DNA of 64,000 nucleotides, taken from a virus. The stretch spans positions 34,050 to 98,049 of IMG/VR virus record IMGVR_UViG_3300045131_002463; one strand, written 5' to 3'. Under the pieces are notes generated by a model. That model was given only the letters and a program-made list of their open reading frames with translations. It was not told the origin of the DNA and searched no databases. Made by a program: the position numbers and the translations under genes. Shown one piece after another: positions 2,330 to 64,000 of this stretch (positions within the stretch are counted from its first letter, which is position 1; every line of letters starts with the position of its first letter).

Positions 2330-3862
2330 TTACATTCCCATAATATGTCTCTTTAATGCTTTCCAAGAATCTAGCCCACCTAAAACGTGAAAAATATTAG
2401 GGGACCAGCCAGAGACCATATAAACATCTTTTTGCATAATGTCAATGGGGTAGGTACCGTAAGAAGACAAATCAAACATATATATCTTAGCAGTTGGGTT
2501 TAATTGTTTATACTTATTCCACGAACGCTCAAACGCTGATCTATTCACACTGGAATCTCGAGCCCCATAAAAATGGCTATGCCTACCAAGACCCAGATCT
2601 GAATATATCTGTGAATCCGAGAAAAACATTACATTATCTACGTGCAAATTTCCAGAAATAAGCCAATCAATTACGCGATAACCATACGTGCTTAATCCTA
2701 CTGAGGGCAGCTGAACTCCGCCTATTATTTGGTTTCCAAAAGGCGCTACAGCCCAGTCATTTCCGAAAACTCCAGTTATAACTTTCCCGCATTTCTTAGC
2801 CAGCATTCTTCCTAAAAGGATGCCTACATCTATAAGTCTTATAGAAGAGTTTTTTGAAAGTGGATCATTCATAGAACCACTTACATCACACGCTATAAGC
2901 GTGGCTTCTTTTTTAAGATCCCCTATACCGGGAATATTATCAATAGAAATTATAAGAGCTTTCTCAAACACTTCCTGAAACCTATTCATGTTCATTTGAA
3001 TCTCAGGATCGCGCTCTTCCATCAATCTAGCAAAAGCAGAATACCATCTAAATGGAAATTGTTTAGATTTAAGGATCTGTTGTTCATTCCCTAAAAGTGC
3101 TATCAATTTTTGAATATGCTCTTCACTAATACCAGCCTTCAACATGTTTTTAATATTACGAAGAGCTGCCATATAAGGAATACTATTAGTATCTAGTAGA
3201 TTCTCCCATGCAGCTTTCTTAGCTACTGGATCAGAACCAGCGGCTGATATATCCACTTCCCATGTGGTAATAGGATCTAGGGCATCCTCTAGTATCTGTT
3301 TGTATACAGAGCTTTCTTCTCCTGTTCTGGGCTTAGGGTGACATAAGCATAGGACATCTTTAAATGTAATCTTTTCTTTACTCTGCTTATCGTATTTTCT
3401 AAACTGATAACTATTAAATTTACTAAAAGATTCCGCTATACCTTTCTTTAAGGCATTAGGAATTTTTCTAATATCATGTCCGCCTTTACCTTTTATCCCC
3501 TGCCAAGCAGCTAATAGTTCTTTTATTTCATCTGCCCTAGATACAACCCTAGATACCATAGAGGCAGTAAGTTTATCGTTAAGAGCCAGCCCAACTAGCA
3601 GCACTAACGGTACCGACCTAAGGTACATATCTTTACGTAGGTAAACCGCTAAATTAGCCACGAACTGTGGGTCACATTTAGGAATTAAATCTAGAATAGT
3701 AGCAATAGTCTGATCGGTTTTCTTATAGAAAGTGTCTTGCAGTAGGTTACAAGCTGTAACCGAGTAAAGCTGTTGCTCTGGATCCAGACCTATATATGCT
3801 ACTGCCCCTTCTTCGTTTACTGTTCTTCTTCGATTCTCTGCAACTTCATTAAACCTAGACAT
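2330..3862 (-). CDS. rsr: Ro60/TROVE-domain RNA-binding protein (Rsr-like)
   Basis: 510 residues, the usual length of bacterial Ro orthologues. Residues about 1-310 are an all-helical TROVE ring domain; the C-terminal third is a von Willebrand A domain whose metal site is visible as DVSGS near residue 326, with a further acidic FFSDSQ near 420. Ro proteins bind Y RNAs on the outer surface and thread single-stranded 3' ends of misfolded or structured RNA through the ring; in bacteria Ro with Y RNA can tether the exonuclease PNPase. Directly upstream lie six Y-like RNA units (3,892-4,587), which strongly supports the call. An AAGGAG site precedes ATG 3862. No RtcB or PNPase gene is visible here, so host partners would be needed. 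Confidence 0.93.
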   Translation of the reverse strand: MSRFNEVAENRRRTVNEEGAVAYIGLDPEQQLYSVTACNLLQDTFYKKTDQTIATILDLIPKCDPQFVANLAVYLRKDMYLRSVPLVLLVGLALNDKLTASMVSRVVSRADEIKELLAAWQGIKGKGGHDIRKIPNALKKGIAESFSKFNSYQFRKYDKQSKEKITFKDVLCLCHPKPRTGEESSVYKQILEDALDPITTWEVDISAAGSDPVAKKAAWENLLDTNSIPYMAALRNIKNMLKAGISEEHIQKLIALLGNEQQILKSKQFPFRWYSAFARLMEERDPEIQMNMNRFQEVFEKALIISIDNIPGIGDLKKEATLIACDVSGSMNDPLSKNSSIRLIDVGILLGRMLAKKCGKVITGVFGNDWAVAPFGNQIIGGVQLPSVGLSTYGYRVIDWLISGNLHVDNVMFFSDSQIYSDLGLGRHSHFYGARDSSVNRSAFERSWNKYKQLNPTAKIYMFDLSSYGTYPIDIMQKDVYMVSGWSPNIFHVLGGLDSWKALKRHIMGM

Positions 3863-3891
3863 ATTTTTAACTCCTTGAAATTTATGAAAAA

Positions 3892-4003
3892 GCGCGGGGA
3901 AAGGACTATAACGGGTTTACTGCAGGATTCCAACCTGCAATCCTAGATTGTTGTCTAGTGTGTTTAGCATTTCACGAAGTATCCGTTATATACGCCGCCG
4001 CAC
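3892..4003 (-). ncRNA. Y-like RNA 6 (Ro60-proximal)
   Basis: 112 nt. Basal stem GTGCGG/CCGCGC, shared box CGGCGTA, 8-bp helix TATAACGG/CCGTTATA, then ATACTTC. The interior holds a hairpin CTAGA-CAACAA-TCTAG and, six nt later, a tRNA-like T arm TGCAGG-TTGGAAT-CCTGCA. This resembles the anticodon-to-T-arm half of a tRNA and differs from the module of unit 5. It ends about 30 nt upstream of the Ro60 start codon. Confidence 0.75.
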
Positions 4004-4020
4004 CACAAAAGCCAATGTAA

Positions 4021-4144
4021 AGCGCTAGGAAAAAGCTAGAAGAGAAATGCGTCTCACCAACTGACGCCCTCAACTTTCGTTGGGATCGATTCGAACGATT
4101 ACTCATTTTTAATAAGAAGTAACTCTTCTATACGCCGTAGCGCT
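4021..4144 (-). ncRNA. yrlA-like: Y-like RNA 5 with permuted tRNA mimic
   Basis: 124 nt. Basal stem AGCGCTA/TAGCGCT, box CGGCGTA, 8-bp helix TAGAAGAG/CTCTTCTA, then TTACTTC. The interior contains, in this order, a T arm (ATCG-TTCGAAT-CGAT), an acceptor-like stem capped by a GAAA tetraloop (CCC-AAC-GAAA-GTT-GA-GGG), and a D arm (GCGTC-AGTTGGTGA-GACGC). T arm before D arm is the circular permutation known for the effector module of bacterial YrlA RNAs. This is the clearest Y RNA of the array. Confidence 0.88.
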
Positions 4145-4155
4145 TAATTAAAAAG

Positions 4156-4283
4156 TTTGGCAGGAAAAAAGCTGAAAGAGGTGTTTGTGCCCTTTTTTAT
4201 TTTTACAAGGAAAAACCTATTGCTAGGATAAAACCTTTGGTGGACATTTACTGTGAAGTATCTCTCTCATACGCCGTGCCAAA
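4156..4283 (-). ncRNA. Y-like RNA 4
   Basis: 128 nt. Basal stem TTTGGCA/TGCCAAA, box CGGCGTA, 8-bp helix TGAGAGAG/CTCTTTCA (one G-U), then ATACTTC. The interior has a short T-arm-like hairpin AGG-TTTTAT-CCT, a tetraloop-capped stem CCTA-GCAA-TAGG, and a loose CCTT/AAGG arm, so it looks like a decayed version of the permuted tRNA module of unit 5. Confidence 0.75.
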
Positions 4284-4294
4284 TAGGTAAAAGA

Positions 4295-4365
4295 TACCGG
4301 GGTAAAAGCGATTAAGGAGTCGTCCTAAACTAAAGATGAAGTAACCTTATTCTACGCCGCCGGTA
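4295..4365 (-). ncRNA. Y-like RNA 3 (short form)
   Basis: 71 nt. Basal stem TACCGG/CCGGTA, box CGGCGTA, helix GAATAAGG/CCTTAATC with one mismatch, then TTACTTC. The loop after the box has only about 20 nt, so there is no room for a tRNA-like module; this is a Ro-binding stem alone. Confidence 0.7.
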
Positions 4366-4375
4366 ATTTTTTTTA

Positions 4376-4508
4376 AAAAAAGAGGGAAAAAATGATTAGA
4401 GAGATTTTCGCGTTTTAGTTAAACTATCTCCACAAAGTGAAGAGCAGAATTCTATATCTGCATCACGTCATTGGCATTGAAGTAACTCTAATCTACGCCG
4501 CTCTTTTT
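4376..4508 (-). ncRNA. Y-like RNA 2
   Basis: About 132 nt. Basal stem AAAAGAG/CTCTTTT, box CGGCGTA, 8-bp helix GATTAGAG/CTCTAATC, then TTACTTC. The interior shows GCAGA/TCTGC (T-arm-like), CTTCAC-TTT-GTGGAG (acceptor-like hairpin) and GATAGTTTAACTA (D-arm-like), again in permuted order but more diverged than unit 5. Confidence 0.73.
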
Positions 4509-4522
4509 ATTTTTTTATTTAA

Positions 4523-4587
4523 AGCGGGAAAAAACGAGCAAAGTTTTGGTTTCATTTTCAGTGAAGTATCTCTGCTCTACGCCGCGC
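4523..4587 (-). ncRNA. Y-like RNA 1 (short form, promoter-proximal)
   Basis: 65 nt. Basal stem GCGG/CCGC, box CGGCGTA, 8-bp helix GAGCAGAG/CTTTGCTC (one G-U), then ATACTTC and a loop of about 25 nt without tRNA features. It starts about 25 nt after the predicted transcription start of the promoter at 4619-4647. Confidence 0.7.
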
Positions 4588-4618
4588 TTTTATATCAAAG
4601 ATCTCAAATTCTAAATAT

Positions 4619-5369: not shown

Positions 5370-5602
5370 TTTATTTCTCCTATAGGCCAGTATCTCGCCT
5401 CTTCTCCCCCCGAGAAGATAATGGGTTCATCATACCAAAACATGCTTCCTTTTACAACACCTTTTTTAACAGTATAATTTTCGTTAGGGTTATCCTTCTT
5501 TGGGATCTTACCAGTGTACACTTTATCTAAACAAGTGTGATGCTTATCGCTAATGTAACAAAGCAGGGATGCCTTTTTTTCTTTCGGTGGCTTTTTTGCC
5601 AT
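5366..5602 (-). CDS. Hypothetical small basic protein
   Basis: 78 residues, lysine-rich N-terminus (MAKKPPKEKKAS), then CYISDKHHTCLDKVYTG and a beta-rich C-terminus ending YWPIGEIK. I do not recognise a family; two cysteines flank a HH pair but there is no complete zinc motif. ATG 5602 is two bases after the stop of the preceding gene and its own stop overlaps the thyX start by 4 nt, so it is translationally coupled to thyX. Confidence 0.55.
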   Translation of the reverse strand: MAKKPPKEKKASLLCYISDKHHTCLDKVYTGKIPKKDNPNENYTVKKGVVKGSMFWYDEPIIFSGGEEARYWPIGEIK

Positions 5603-5604
5603 AA

Positions 5605-5817
5605 TTAAAACTCCTGAAAAAAAACGTCTGGGTCTTTAAAATCCCCTACTATGCTAGAGTCTACATCAACAGTGCCCGAGAGTCCAGAGTTTTTTAGCGC
5701 TATTTCAGCATTATTTTTATACTTGTTAGCTGCGTATAGACTTGTAAATATCCCCAGTACTCCACTTTTAACAGAGAATTCTGAGATCGCATAGGTTACA
5801 ACATATAACACTTTCAA
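5605..5817 (-). CDS. Hypothetical small protein
   Basis: 70 residues: MKVLYVVTYAISEFSVKSG start, a helix with YAANKYKNNAEIALKNSG, and a C-terminus DPDVFFQEF. The pattern of a beta strand followed by a helix marked by YAANKY resembles small phage proteins that act as single alpha/beta modules, but I cannot name a family. It sits in a row of closely spaced minus-strand genes with an AGGAG-type site before ATG 5817. Confidence 0.5.
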   Translation of the reverse strand: MKVLYVVTYAISEFSVKSGVLGIFTSLYAANKYKNNAEIALKNSGLSGTVDVDSSIVGDFKDPDVFFQEF

Positions 5818-32479: not shown

Positions 32480-32508
32480 TTGACAAGCTTATTTTTTTGT
32501 GGTATATT
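32480..32508 (+). promoter_or_regulatory. Promoter within the structural arm
   Basis: TTGACA (32480-32485), 17-nt spacer ending TGTGG, TATATT (32503-32508). It restarts transcription after the sheath terminator. Confidence 0.85.
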
Positions 32509-34031: not shown

Positions 34032-34060
34032 TTGACATAGCTTATAGAGGGAAGTATACT
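34032..34060 (+). promoter_or_regulatory. Promoter within the structural arm
   Basis: TTGACA (34032-34037), 17-nt spacer, TATACT (34055-34060). The TGTGG block is replaced by GGAAG. Confidence 0.82.
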
Positions 34061-34066
34061 GTATTT

Positions 34067-34140
34067 ACCTTCCCTAGAAGGTTCATTTTTTTTTCTCCTT
34101 TCCTCGAAAAGGCTGCTGGGTTCTCCATCAGCCTTTTTTG
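34067..34140 (+). ncRNA. Short RNA or attenuated leader, about 74 nt
   Basis: From the predicted start a hairpin ACCTTC-CCTA-GAAGGT (34067-34082) is followed by a U/C-rich single strand and a terminator AAAAGGCTG/CAGCCTTTT with TTTTTT (34107-34139). Promoter and terminator are only about 75 nt apart. It is either an independent small RNA or an attenuator ahead of the gene at 34166. Confidence 0.6.
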
Positions 34141-34574: not shown

Positions 34575-34997
34575 ATGGAGAGAATGGATTTTTATATTTA
34601 TGGCACAGGATCTACGCAGGGATTTGATGTCAATGGAACATGTGAATACTTTGATATTGATAGTGAGATGCGCGCCATAAGAAAGGAGTGGAAGCGTAAT
34701 GAAGTGGTATCTATGTTCGCTCTTACTCCCGGTCGTAAAAAAATACCTAAAGACCTTATAAAATATTTTGAAGAAAAGCCCGAGCATTCAGGTAATCTCA
34801 CTTTGCGTAAAATGCAATTTGAAGGAAACCCAATCTTCCCGGAAGATAATGTGGGCTTAAGGTATAATATTTCATTAGGTGAGTATATGTTTACTAAAAG
34901 TATGATGATTAGAATGCACTTATACAGTGAAGATGGGCAGGATTATATTGATATGGAATTTGCTCTTTCTTACGTCACATGGCGCGATAAAAAATAA
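34575..34997 (+). CDS. Hypothetical tail-region protein
   Basis: 140 residues, beta-rich. The order DFYIYGTGSTQGFDVNGTCE, KIPKDLIKYFEEKPE and DGQDYIDMEFALSYVTW suggests a small jelly-roll or tube-like domain. The location before the tail tube gene would fit a tail tube or tail-completion role, but sequence does not decide. It has a GGG-AAAG type ribosome site and is followed directly by a copy of the palindrome and the promoter of the 285-nt structured RNA. Confidence 0.55.
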   Translation: MERMDFYIYGTGSTQGFDVNGTCEYFDIDSEMRAIRKEWKRNEVVSMFALTPGRKKIPKDLIKYFEEKPEHSGNLTLRKMQFEGNPIFPEDNVGLRYNISLGEYMFTKSMMIRMHLYSEDGQDYIDMEFALSYVTWRDKK

Positions 34998-35016
34998 TTT
35001 GCAATCAATTGCAAAA
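34997..35016. promoter_or_regulatory. Palindromic site, copy 6
   Basis: ATTTGCAATCAATTGCAAAA, one mismatch to the full palindrome. It overlaps the stop codon of the upstream gene and lies 6 bp before the -35 box at 35023. Confidence 0.72.
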
Positions 35017-35022
35017 AAAAGC

Positions 35023-35051
35023 TTGACTTTTATCTAAAGCTGTGGTAGACT
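35023..35051 (+). promoter_or_regulatory. Promoter of the structured RNA
   Basis: TTGACT (35023-35028), 17-nt spacer ending TGTGG, TAGACT (35046-35051). Confidence 0.78.
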
Positions 35052-35057
35052 AGGTTT

Positions 35058-35342
35058 AAATTAGTTCACTGGGTAAAGGCTGCGCTCATAACTAATTCTT
35101 CTATAGCATAAAATCTCCTTCGACTATTAACCCAGCAGCCATTCCTTTGAAATTACAGTTTGGCTATTGCTTGGCTAGAATCTTATGTATTTCATGTTGA
35201 AACTCCTTTTTTATTAATATAAAAAAAGCAGTAGCCACTTTATTCGACTTAGACGACCAAATTTCGCAAATATTTCATTTAACAAAAAGGAAATCCTTGG
35301 TCGTCGAGGAGAGCGCGCTTAAAACCCGCGCTCTTTTTTTAT
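35058..35342 (+). ncRNA. Strongly structured noncoding RNA, about 285 nt
   Basis: It runs from the promoter to a terminator GAGCGCG/CGCGCTC with T7 (35309-35342). Long-range helices: AATTAGTT/AACTAATT (35059-35066 with 35090-35097); CTGGGT and GGCTG inside that loop with ACCCAG and CAGCC at 35130-35140, in a crossing order that implies a pseudoknot or alternative pairing; TGGCTATTGC/GCAGTAGCCA (35161-35170 with 35228-35237, one G-U); GACGACCAA/TTGGTCGTC (35252-35260 with 35297-35305). No ORF of note is present. Confidence 0.72.
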
Positions 35343-35560: not shown

Positions 35561-36040
35561 ATGCCTACGACAGCTTGTGCGATACCGCGGTTAAAAGATT
35601 TTAAATATCGTGTTGAAATTAATGGACTCGAGGCAGCTCTTGTACAAGAGTTTGAGCCTGGAACAAGAACGCATGGGGTTACCGTTCATAATGGCGCGGG
35701 CCAGAACCACGTATGTAAGGAAGTCGGAATGATCGGTTTCTCTAACTGCGTTCTAAGGACTGTTGTTCCTGTAGATGGTGAAATGCGTAACTACTGGGAA
35801 TTCTGGTTGGACCAAGCGCAGGATCCTACTACTGGTAACGGTGGAATGCCTGCCAAATATCAGAGGAACTTCAGCGTGTTCGAGCTAGCTCCTGACGGGT
35901 CACCTTCAAGAGTTTATGAATATTTTAAAGGGTTTCCTGTATCCTTCAAAGTCAACGCCAAGTCTTCTTTGGACGACAGTACCGATGTTTTAGAATTCGT
36001 TGAGATAGCTTACAATCGTCGTGAAATAAGAGTACTGTAA
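35561..36040 (+). CDS. Tail tube protein
   Basis: 159 residues, the normal length of contractile-tail tube proteins of the T4 gp19 type. It begins with the strand FKYRVEINGLEAALVQEFEP and shows the family's central ..YWEFWLDQ and C-terminal DVLEFVEIAYNR(R) features. The tube is the inner conduit for DNA and stacks as hexamers inside the sheath. It has an AGGAGG ribosome site and higher GC content at third positions than neighbours, in keeping with high expression. The operon then has a copy of the palindrome and a terminator. Confidence 0.88.
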   Translation: MPTTACAIPRLKDFKYRVEINGLEAALVQEFEPGTRTHGVTVHNGAGQNHVCKEVGMIGFSNCVLRTVVPVDGEMRNYWEFWLDQAQDPTTGNGGMPAKYQRNFSVFELAPDGSPSRVYEYFKGFPVSFKVNAKSSLDDSTDVLEFVEIAYNRREIRVL

Positions 36041-59950: not shown

Positions 59951-62900
59951 TGCCCTTTGATGAATCGTTAGTAGATAAAGGTAGTTGGTTTTATGATACC
60001 AGTGATGGTTCCACTCCTCCCCCAGTAGGAGATGGTGTTACCTATTCTCGTGCCCTGGGCTGGCAGTCCCCGGAGGGAAACTTTTATGGACAGGAGAGAT
60101 GGGTTAGAGATTGGTATTCTGCAGTTTTTTGGGACGGAGAAGAGTATAAAATATTTGAAATTGACGGGGAGGCCGATTCTCCTGAGTTATTGCCTATTCC
60201 TGGAGAAATTAATCCTAGAACTGGAGAACCTTATGGGTCTCGTAGCTCTTTTGAAATGTGGGCTACCCCAAGATTGAATTGGCCCCCAGAAGATTTAACA
60301 ATATATGATGGGCGTAGCAAGGAGTACTGGTGGTGGGATGTTGATACACAAGAATGGAAAATAATAGAGTGGTACTGGACCTGTGACGGAGAAGATGAGC
60401 TTCCTCTTCCGGGAATTAAGAGAGGATCGGCACATATAATAATTTATCCAGATGTAAAGGTAATGTGGAATGGGTATGTTTGGAAAAGGTATTCCATAGA
60501 TATGTTAGATGGGGGAGAGCGTGTTGATGGGTTAGAGGGATTAACAGAGCTTACTACAGGACAGGTTACACAACTACAAGGTGATCATAATAATTTATTG
60601 GCTTCTTATTTAGGTAATACAGATACAGGAGATGAGGAATTAGACGGTGCAGCTGAAGCTAATTTAGCAATGGTTAATACATTAAACGCCATGTCTGATC
60701 ACGGGTGGATTACTTTAGCAGAAGCACTTGAGTTAAAGAAACACCTAGCAGATATTATAGCTGAATCTGAATCTTTAATTTTTATTGCTAATGCTTTAGA
60801 AGAAGCAGTAGAGGACTTAGATTTATCTTCAGAAATAAGTAATTATGATTCAGCGGTAACTCAATTAACTCTGGCTCTTAATAGTTGGATAAATGCATCA
60901 GCTTATCCGGTGGAAATAACTGGTACAGTAACAACAAGAGAGACTTTAGACGCTAGAATAGCAACTGTAGTATCAACACGAGAATTGTTAAGAACTGCAA
61001 CCCAAAGTGCAAATATTAGTTATGTTGATGCGCAGACAATCCAATTAAACGAGTCAATCAATACCCTTTCTGGAAATGTAGATACTTGGTTTTCTGATGC
61101 TGTTATTACTTATATAGAGGCTAGCTCCCTTAAGACGTCGCTAATACAGGTTAATTCAGAATCTATTGATATTATAGCAGTGGCAGAGTCTCTACTAGTC
61201 TCAGCTGTAACAGTTTCTGCCTACACACAAGCACTGGACTATTTAGATACAGCCCTTGACTTATTTATAGATAAGACATCATATCCTATAGAAATCACTT
61301 CTCAGCAACGAGTAGATATCACTGAAGCCCTTGCGGAAGTTCAGGCTACAAAGACTTTATTATCTATAGCTATAGAAGAAAAGAGAACTCAGACTGCAAT
61401 TGAATATATAGATCAGCAAGTGGGTGAGTTAGATTCTGCGTTTGCTAGTATGGCAGCAAATATTGTAGACTGGACGGTAGATTTATCTGTGAGTTCGTCC
61501 GAGTCAGACTCCTTAGAGATTAGCATGATAGCGGTGCAGTCCCAGGCAAGTGATTTGGAAGCAATTGCCTCTAGTCTTGCTCCTGTCCCAGAAACCTCCC
61601 CTGTAAGTTCCATTACTGCTGCAAAGACAGCTTTTTCTGATTCCTTATCCGCCTTATTTGTTTTACTTAATCCTTATATAAATCAACAATCTTATCCTAT
61701 TGAGATAACACAAAACGATAAGGATACAATAGTAATTGCATTAAATGACACTCGTTCTAAAAAGTTACTTCTAGAAGATGCAATTAGTTCTACAAGAATA
61801 ACTAATATTTATGATTACGTAGATGATCAAATTGGAGAGGTTAACACCGCCGTAGGAGACTTAGGCGATGAGTTAGCGCTAGCTTCTAATGATAGCTATA
61901 TCACGCTAGCAGAGGCTAACGAAATTAAGCGCCATAAGGCGCAGCTTGACGCTGAATCTACAGACATAATTGCAATAGCCGCAGGCTTGGCTCCGGTCCC
62001 TGAGACAGACCCAATAAGTGCTATTACTACCAAGAAATTAGCATATTCCGCTTCGCTTACAGCGCTAACAAATGCGCTAGCAAGCTGGATCACTAATGTT
62101 ACATATCCTCTGGAAATTACAGGACAAGTCACAACAAAAGTTGCGATGAGCACAGCTCTTGCTAATGTGAAGATAGCGCAGGCGGCGCTCACAAAAGAAA
62201 TTCAAGCCTCTAACGTGGGTTACGTAGACGATCAAATTGGAGAAGTTAACACAGCCGTAGGAGATTTAGGAGATGAGTTAGCGCTAGCTTCCAATGATAG
62301 CTATATCACGCTAGCAGAGGCTAACGAAATTAAGCGCCATAAAGCGCAGCTTGACGCTGAGTCTACCGATATAATTGCAATAGCCACAGGCTTAGCTCCG
62401 GTCCCCGAGACAGACCCCGTAAGTGCTATCACCACTAAGAAATTAGCATATTCAGCTTCGCTTACCGCGCTAACTAATGCGCTAGCAAGTTGGATCACCA
62501 ACGTTACGTATCCTCTGGAAATTACAGGACAAGTTACAACAAAAAGCACTATGAGTGCAGTGTTAGCTAATGTGAAGATAGCGCAGGCGGCGCTCACAAA
62601 AGAAATTCAAGCCTCTAACGTGGGTTACGTAGACGATCAAATTGGAGAAGTTAACACAGCCGTAGGAGATTTAGGAGATGAGTTAGCGCTAGCTTCCAAT
62701 GATAGCTATATCACGCTAGCAGAGGCTAACGAAATTAAGCGCCATAAAGCGCAGCTTGACGCTGAGTCTACCGATATAATTGCAATAGCCACAGGCTTAG
62801 CTCCGGTCCCCGAGACAGACCCCGTAAGTGCTATCACCACTAAGAAATTAGCATATTCCGCTTCGCTTACAGCGCTAACAAATGCGCTAGCAAGTTGGAT

Positions 62901-64000
62901 CACCAACGTTACGTATCCTCTGGAAATTGCAGGACAAGTCACAACAAAAGTTGCGATGAGCACAGCTCTTGCTAACGTGAAGATAGCGCAAGCAGCGCTC
63001 ACAAAAGAAATTCAAGCCTCTAACGTGGATTACGTAGATGATCAAATTGGAGAGGTTAACACCGCCGTAGGAGACTTAGGCGATGAGTTAGCGCTAGCTT
63101 CTAATGATAGCTATATCACGCTAGCAGAGGCTAACGAAATTAAGCGCCATAAGGCGCAGCTTGACGCTGAATCTACAGACATAATTGCAATAGCGGTGAG
63201 TCTAGCTCCGGTGCCTGAGACAGACCCAGTTAGTGCTATTACTACCAAGAAATTAGCATATTCCGCTTCGCTTACAGCGCTAACAAATGCGCTAGCAAGT
63301 TGGATCACCAACGTTACGTATCCTCTGGAAATTACAGGACAAGTTACAACAAAAAGCACTATGAGTGCAGTGTTAGCTAATGTGAAGATAGCGCAGGCGG
63401 CGCTCACAAAAGAAATTCAAGCCTCTAACGTGGGTTACGTAGACGATCAAATTGGAGAAGTTAACACAGCCGTAGGAGATTTAGGAGATGAGTTAGCGCT
63501 AGCTTCCAATGATAGCTATATCACGCTAGCAGAGGCTAACGAAATTAAGCGCCATAAAGCGCAGCTTGACGCTGAGTCTACCGATATAATTGCAATAGCC
63601 ACAGGCTTAGCTCCGGTCCCCGAGACAGACCCCGTAAGTGCTATCACCACTAAGAAATTAGCATATTCCGCTTCGCTTACAGCGCTAACAAATGCGCTAG
63701 CAAGTTGGATCACCAACGTTACGTATCCTCTGGAAATTGCAGGACAAGTCACAACAAAAGTTGCGATGAGCACAGCTCTTGCTAACGTGAAGATAGCGCA
63801 AGCAGCGCTCACAAAAGAAATTCAAGCCTCTAACGTGGATTACGTAGATGATCAAATTGGAGAGGTTAACACCGCCGTAGGAGACTTAGGCGATGAGTTA
63901 GCGCTAGCTTCTAATGATAGCTATATCACGCTAGCAGAGGCTAACGAAATTAAGCGCCATAAGGCGCAGCTTGACGCTGAATCTACAGACATAATTGCAA
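59950..64000 (+). CDS. Very long repeat-containing tail protein, 3' end beyond window
   Basis: Open for at least 1,350 codons with no stop. The N-terminus (MPFDESLVDKGSWFYDTSDG) has several W/D-rich strips (YDGRSKEYWWWDVDTQEWK, WNGYVWKRYSID). From about residue 200 there are helical repeats of about 128-137 residues; four early ones are diverged, and from 61816 they are 135 residues each and nearly identical (YVDDQIGEVN ... ALTKEIQASNV). The sequence is alpha-helical with GDEL..A..D.YITLAEANE and VPETDP. Likely a fibre or a tail-associated adhesin with a helical-bundle shaft. Start overlaps the previous gene. Confidence 0.75.
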   Translation, partial: MPFDESLVDKGSWFYDTSDGSTPPPVGDGVTYSRALGWQSPEGNFYGQERWVRDWYSAVFWDGEEYKIFEIDGEADSPELLPIPGEINPRTGEPYGSRSSFEMWATPRLNWPPEDLTIYDGRSKEYWWWDVDTQEWKIIEWYWTCDGEDELPLPGIKRGSAHIIIYPDVKVMWNGYVWKRYSIDMLDGGERVDGLEGLTELTTGQVTQLQGDHNNLLASYLGNTDTGDEELDGAAEANLAMVNTLNAMSDHGWITLAEALELKKHLADIIAESESLIFIANALEEAVEDLDLSSEISNYDSAVTQLTLALNSWINASAYPVEITGTVTTRETLDARIATVVSTRELLRTATQSANISYVDAQTIQLNESINTLSGNVDTWFSDAVITYIEASSLKTSLIQVNSESIDIIAVAESLLVSAVTVSAYTQALDYLDTALDLFIDKTSYPIEITSQQRVDITEALAEVQATKTLLSIAIEEKRTQTAIEYIDQQVGELDSAFASMAANIVDWTVDLSVSSSESDSLEISMIAVQSQASDLEAIASSLAPVPETSPVSSITAAKTAFSDSLSALFVLLNPYINQQSYPIEITQNDKDTIVIALNDTRSKKLLLEDAISSTRITNIYDYVDDQIGEVNTAVGDLGDELALASNDSYITLAEANEIKRHKAQLDAESTDIIAIAAGLAPVPETDPISAITTKKLAYSASLTALTNALASWITNVTYPLEITGQVTTKVAMSTALANVKIAQAALTKEIQASNVGYVDDQIGEVNTAVGDLGDELALASNDSYITLAEANEIKRHKAQLDAESTDIIAIATGLAPVPETDPVSAITTKKLAYSASLTALTNALASWITNVTYPLEITGQVTTKSTMSAVLANVKIAQAALTKEIQASNVGYVDDQIGEVNTAVGDLGDELALASNDSYITLAEANEIKRHKAQLDAESTDIIAIATGLAPVPETDPVSAITTKKLAYSASLTALTNALASWITNVTYPLEIAGQVTTKVAMSTALANVKIAQAALTKEIQASNVDYVDDQIGEVNTAVGDLGDELALASNDSYITLAEANEIKRHKAQLDAESTDIIAIAVSLAPVPETDPVSAITTKKLAYSASLTALTNALASWITNVTYPLEITGQVTTKSTMSAVLANVKIAQAALTKEIQASNVGYVDDQIGEVNTAVGDLGDELALASNDSYITLAEANEIKRHKAQLDAESTDIIAIATGLAPVPETDPVSAITTKKLAYSASLTALTNALASWITNVTYPLEIAGQVTTKVAMSTALANVKIAQAALTKEIQASNVDYVDDQIGEVNTAVGDLGDELALASNDSYITLAEANEIKRHKAQLDAESTDIIA
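61816..64000 (+). repeat. 405-bp tandem repeats
   Basis: Units begin at 61816, 62221, 62626, 63031, 63436 and 63841 (last one cut by the window). They differ at a few positions in patterned fashion: one variant carries AAAGTTGCGATGAGC and the other AAAAGCACTATGAGT near the 3' part, alternating unit by unit. The repeats stay in frame (135 codons). Confidence 0.95.

Follow-up and report, generated by a model that had tools for sequence, protein, structure and literature searches.

A structured phage RNA with loops resembling antisense of immediate-early translation starts

A 64,000-nucleotide stretch of phage DNA (hereafter the window; it spans positions 34050-98049 in a virus record of 98 kb) very likely carries a genuine structured RNA gene at 35058-35342. 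The RNA appears to represent a new structured family, and its proposed mode of action is broadly known. We give an even chance to the reading that it silences the immediate-early mRNAs of its own phage by antisense pairing, in the way of the c4 RNA of phage P1, to which it is unrelated. The signals of a transcription unit, the fold, compensatory changes, duplication of a hairpin module, enrichment of a motif in the loops and preferential complementarity to immediate-early starts were observed directly. That the RNA is transcribed, pairs with its targets in the cell and represses them, and when it would do so, are the parts of the antisense proposal that we infer. Coordinates refer to the window; those prefixed G000:C1 refer to the record of the window phage, and L-numbers denote other viral contigs.

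Results

A transcription unit between late genes

The RNA interval lies between a 140-aa ORF ending at 34997 and a gene at 35561 for a tail tube protein like T4 gp19. No ORF of at least 40 aa is present between these two positions. The four short ORFs in the RNA interval (20-39 aa) all start with TTG or GTG, and 35058-35342 contains no credible ORF. Beyond the window phage, the viral contigs searched yielded the RNA only in L002 (identical copy), in L003 (a 102.7-kb contig with a diverged copy) and in L008, which ends inside the RNA; the window phage and L003 provide the only two sufficiently different sequences known. The features of the locus are as follows.

34998-35015, no strand: palindrome TTTGCAATCAATTGCAAA, 7 nt 5′ of the -35 element; kept in L003 and L008.
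35023-35051, plus: promoter TTGACT-17-TAGACT with TGTGG ahead of the -10 element; hexamers identical in L003.
35058-35342, plus: structured non-coding RNA (fold, compensatory changes, no ORF); start predicted to within a few nt.
35059-35097, plus: helix H1, AAUUAGUU (35059-35066) with AACUAAUU (35090-35097).
35078-35140, plus: helix H2, GGCUGC (35078-35083) with GCAGCC (35135-35140); crosses H1 as in an H-type pseudoknot.
35107-35120, plus: loop A, CAUAAAAUCUCCUU, mostly unpaired and antisense to a Shine-Dalgarno (SD) sequence plus AUG (motif count, unpaired probability).
35161-35237, plus: candidate exchangeable guide hairpin, stem 35161-35170 with 35228-35237; duplicated in L003.
35193-35212, plus: loop B, CAUGUUGAAACUCCUUUUUU, almost perfectly antisense to the start regions of immediate-early genes (pairing and matrix tests).
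35252-35305, plus: 3′ hairpin with a 9-bp stem, GACGACCAA with UUGGUCGUC, from the fold.
35310-35340, plus: intrinsic terminator, AGAGCGCG...CGCGCUCU followed by a T run (fold and sequence).
34032-34140, plus: neighbouring small RNA with promoter TTGACA-17-TATACT, two hairpins, a linker and a terminator; counterpart at L003:4353-4437.

The palindrome is probably an operator or another protein-binding site. In the promoter, the -35 (35023-35028) and -10 (35046-35051) hexamers are separated by a 17-nt spacer, with a TG before the -10. The site belongs to the TTGACA-N12-TGTGGTA class, as found in the early promoters of the phage. Good sites of this class lie mostly on the minus (early) strand; those on the plus strand with at most one mismatch are found at 32480 and 35023 only. 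The RNA thus has an early-type promoter within the late region. Taken together, palindrome, promoter, absence of a credible ORF and strong terminator suggest that 35058-35342 is a stand-alone transcription unit, with the own promoter, intrinsic terminator and lack of an ORF expected of a trans-acting sRNA gene. A sequence-only reading had placed an RNA at these coordinates, which hold, and had described a gene-free stretch just ahead of the tail tube gene, with its own promoter and terminator and a copy of the palindrome upstream of the promoter; each of these features was recovered.

In most of the distant relatives (sheath-based set) the sheath and tube genes are adjacent, indicating that the RNA belongs to a block that was inserted. 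Cassette-like genes also occur between late genes (sheath, tube, hub) in L003:6600-7600, L010-L013 and L018. They encode Cys-rich HNH-like proteins, often with TTGACA-TGTGGTA promoters of their own, and the surroundings of sheath, tube and hub appear to be an insertion hot spot.

A 5′ pseudoknot followed by hairpins

The plus strand of the interval folds with a minimum free energy of -67.1, as against -51.3 +/- 4.4 for shuffled sequences (z -3.63; 0 of 200 shuffles as good). The L003 counterpart folds at z -4.16 and the opposite strand of the interval at z -2.59. The claim of a structured RNA is thus upheld in both phages.

The 5′ domain contains four helices of at least 6 bp. In L003, H2 changes from GGCUGC/GCAGCC to GGGCGC/GCGCCC, with two of its six pairs altered on both sides and none broken. 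H1 (AATTAGTT/AACTAATT in DNA letters) keeps seven of its eight pairs and shows no compensation, so the evidence for this helix is weaker. The helix TAAAGG/CCTTTG loses one of six pairs. When each sequence was shuffled 1000 times, a crossing of this strength was reached 5 times for the window and 21 times for L003. These findings point to an H-type pseudoknot at the 5′ end of the RNA, as had been suspected. An alternative pairing that competes with the pseudoknot, CUGGGU/ACCCAG, has two of its six pairs broken in L003 and was rejected.

The central hairpin is present in L003 in two copies (5521-5587 and 5602-5677) that have the same stem and unrelated loops. Its 10-bp stem shows two compensated pairs across the three copies. 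The 3′ hairpin and the terminator are identical in L003 and, as a result, provide no covariation evidence. Covariation, which had been suggested as a check on both the 10-bp and the 9-bp helix, is accordingly seen in the former only. Sliding the partner strand as a control yielded no compensated pairs; shuffling letters reached the compensation count in about 23% of shuffles, a control that is weak with two or three sequences.

Searches for related RNAs

Rfam 15, searched at the gathering threshold and at E values up to 10, returned nothing nearing the cut-off of any family, and ARAGORN found no tRNA or tmRNA at the interval. The RNA thus falls outside tRNA, tmRNA, riboswitch, GOLLD, ROOL and the other Rfam families, in agreement with the initial view that it was not a tRNA, a riboswitch or a known class. 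A covariance model of the 5′ domain, run against 14 records, matched the window phage and L003 only. BLASTN against phages and plasmids gave no homologue of the RNA, and pattern scans of viral contigs (with the module and with a loop-A 17-mer) gave matches beyond the known contigs that lacked the surrounding RNA. A sheath search of GTDB genomes for a host or prophage yielded one Dehalococcoidia MAG contig without the RNA, whose 48% identity is too weak for naming the host. A type III antitoxin RNA was considered and set aside, there being no short tandem repeat array and no recognised toxin adjacent.

Loops resembling antisense of ribosome-binding sites

Several loops contain CAU-N5..9-UCCUU, the reverse complement of a SD sequence plus AUG. 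The reverse complement of loop A reads GAAGGAGAUUUUAUG, that of loop B AAAAAAGGAGUUUCAACAUG and that of the second L003 module UUCAAAAGGAUCUCAAAAUG. On the plus strand of the 40-kb late region CAT-N5..9-TCCTT occurs four times, twice in the RNA and once in the neighbouring small RNA; its enrichment in the RNA has a shuffle P of 0.001 in the window and 0.002 in L003. Loop A is predicted to be unpaired with a probability of 0.86 in the window and 0.96 in L003. The predicted minimum-energy structure takes up part of loop B and part of the loop of the second L003 module (C2; the other L003 module loop is C1).

The immediate-early genes of the phage are clustered outside the window, on the minus strand of G000:C1 at about 2.7-10.2 kb, and share the stereotyped start AAAAAGGAGAUUNAAAAUG. 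Loops were compared with three sets of starts: 24 immediate-early, other early and late. The L003 loops were tested on the starts of the window phage, as the contig of L003 stops short of its own immediate-early genes. All of these pairing tests are post hoc, having been devised after the similarity was noticed. A ranking of targets that used entire loops, with full shuffles as control, singled out none; this ranking being uninformative, we used a control in which the CTCCTT or ATCCTT core was held and the flanks shuffled, which asks if the match exceeds a generic anti-SD. Against the 24 immediate-early starts loop B scored P 0.02 and loop C2 was equalled by 0 of 150 controls; the sum of the four loops gave z -6.06 (0 of 150 controls). 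No significant excess was seen against other early (P 0.29) or late (P 0.13) starts, and the preference for immediate-early starts was not significant for loops A and C1 or for the 3′ hairpin. With a matrix of immediate-early starts from which the SD core was omitted, loop B ranked among the best 0.4% of AAGGA sites that are not starts, C2 among the best 8%, and neither loop A nor C1 was remarkable.

The predicted targets are small immediate-early genes. The strongest named target of loop B is a 55-aa gene, G000:C1:2742(-), with which it would pair in runs of 9, 5 and 9 bp. A 21-nt antisense of loop B finds the start of this gene with three mismatches and otherwise only itself in three genomes. 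Loop A has a perfect 12-nt complement at the start of G000:C1:4929(-). Two other pairings were discarded: that of the 3′ arm of H2 with the terminator at 34111 (12-nt complement), which differs in L003, and one between loop A and unit five of the Y-RNA-like array (see below), 13 bp by eye with one G-U, a length expected by chance.

The neighbouring small RNA (transcript part about 34066-34140) has a single-stranded linker at 34084-34100 that is likewise antisense to SD plus AUG. The motif has a shuffle P of 0.03 and 0.05 in the two phages, and the linker scores P 0.02-0.10 against early starts versus 0.37 and 0.85 against late starts. Its terminator stem is wholly changed in L003 with pairing intact.

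Other repeated features of the phage

A TROVE/Ro60 protein (PF05731, 83 bits) is encoded at 2330-3862 on the minus strand. Upstream of its gene, six tandem Y-RNA-like units (3890-4610, minus strand) each show GGCGUA-N7-GWUACUUC, whose N7 has a complement in the unit, plus a U-rich CC strand; the last contains a tRNA-like domain (Rfam tRNA, 30.8 bits). An Rfam search of this array reported no Y RNA. The array is present also in the phage of L003 and in L069, whose first unit has the N7 helix AAACAGA/TCTGTTT in place of GAGCAGA/TTTGCTC. A gene for a ThyX-type thymidylate synthase (PF02511; 4671-5369, minus strand) lies directly upstream of the array. A record-wide search for the Y RNA helix motif, GGCGUA-N7-GWUACUUC plus the U-rich strand that partners it, found the six array units only, and not the RNA at 35058-35342.

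The palindrome TTTGCAATYRATTGCAAA occurs at 513, 4654, 15736, 19849, 29434, 34998, 36084 and 46437, that is, in 8 copies at up to three mismatches in the window against 0.8 expected, with 10 exact cores in the record. Copies are mostly found right after stop codons, often ahead of a promoter, and are probably phage operators or stoperator-like sites. A unit of about 405 bp is repeated in tandem at 61944-64000, where the window ends, the same stretch recurring at 61944, 62349, 62754, 63159, 63564 and 63969.

Discussion

We propose that the element is the gene for a structured, trans-acting antisense sRNA, carried as a cassette between late genes. The 5′ pseudoknot and the stacked hairpins would form a scaffold, of which two helices are compensated and the rest we infer. 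This scaffold would display loops equivalent to the reverse complement of SD plus start codon, which would pair with the start regions of immediate-early mRNAs and block ribosome entry, thereby damping the early programme of the phage or of a superinfecting relative. The guide hairpin would be duplicable and its loop replaceable on a constant stem, so that the set of targets could change. More tentatively, this may be a multi-guide antisense RNA, in which one scaffold carries several duplicable hairpins with loops directed against the ribosome-binding site consensus of the early class; together with the second small RNA, it would switch the early programme off at translation, its loops being replaced and its stems kept.

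The initial observation is confirmed, and its first interpretation is partly supported: the evidence favours a structured non-coding RNA that belongs to no known family and has a promoter of its own, a terminator and a pseudoknot. Regulation of late gene expression probably has the direction wrong, since the loops match immediate-early rather than late ribosome-binding sites and transcription would start from an early-class promoter. Nothing in the findings favours a decoy for RNases or a packaged RNA.

In phages P1 and P7, c4 RNA has loops with stretches complementary to the surroundings of a ribosome-binding site, and pairing there prevents translation (PMC12197685). It acts on a single mRNA, that of the antirepressor ant. 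Like c4, the window RNA is a phage-encoded structured RNA with loops complementary to ribosome-binding sites; it is set apart from c4 by a promoter of its own, a pseudoknot, exchangeable hairpins and a range of targets that would span many early genes. The complementarity was computed post hoc and concerns a different class of targets; the RNA would therefore work like c4 rather than belong with it. It has no match to the C4 family, presumably present in Rfam, at E values up to 10. Two further phage antisense RNAs, sar of P22 and OOP of lambda, each pair with and repress the message of a phage regulator (PMC12197685). The proposed RNA would share with them its phage origin and this mode of action. 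Both sar and OOP are encoded in cis, opposite their target, whereas about 60 kb separate the window RNA from its predicted targets, to which it is partially complementary. Trans action, as proposed for the window RNA, is known for PreS of lambda and VpdS of VP882 (PMC12197685). These two depend on Hfq, and their targets are mRNAs or small RNAs of the host; the targets predicted here are phage early genes instead. With GOLLD, ROOL and other phage-associated Rfam RNAs it has in common that it is structured, non-coding and phage-borne; it differs in lacking an Rfam match. GOLLD, ROOL and similar RNAs are also larger.

Host mRNAs with AAGGAG could be the actual targets, the RNA acting in host take-over by antisense pairing or SD sequestration. 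The UCCUU core would suit any strong SD, ACCUCCUUUU in the first L003 module resembles the 3′ end of 16S rRNA, and the RNA has an early promoter of the kind read by host polymerase. We nevertheless consider this reading improbable: loops B and C2 match past the SD into spacer and start region, specifically those of immediate-early phage starts. The enrichment of the loops for anti-start sequences would be left unexplained if the loops were incidental and the RNA acted through a protein, as ligand, sponge or decoy (for the phage Ro60/TROVE protein, a host chaperone or an RNase). The strong fold, the pseudoknot and the repeated hairpins on a constant stem would fit such a role, and both phages encode a TROVE protein; yet the RNA lacks the motif common to all six units of the Y-RNA-like array next to the TROVE gene, and we give this explanation little credence.

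A reading that we regard as quite unlikely makes the element chiefly an insulator of transcription, or a leader, for the tail tube gene, stopping incoming transcription ahead of it and having no function in trans. Its position directly 5′ of that gene, the strong terminator at its end and the other promoter-bearing insertions around sheath and tube in relatives would agree with such a role, but insulation would require neither an own promoter nor an elaborate compensated fold, and distant relatives do without the element.

The antisense proposal is specific in that both the loops and their target genes are named. Early-gene shut-off in lytic phages of uncultured hosts is mostly ascribed to transcription factors and nucleases. 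If the proposal is correct, an RNA that reads stereotyped immediate-early starts would offer the phage a simple means of switching from early to late expression after transcription. The replacement of guide loops on an unchanging scaffold would, in turn, illustrate how a regulator follows its targets.
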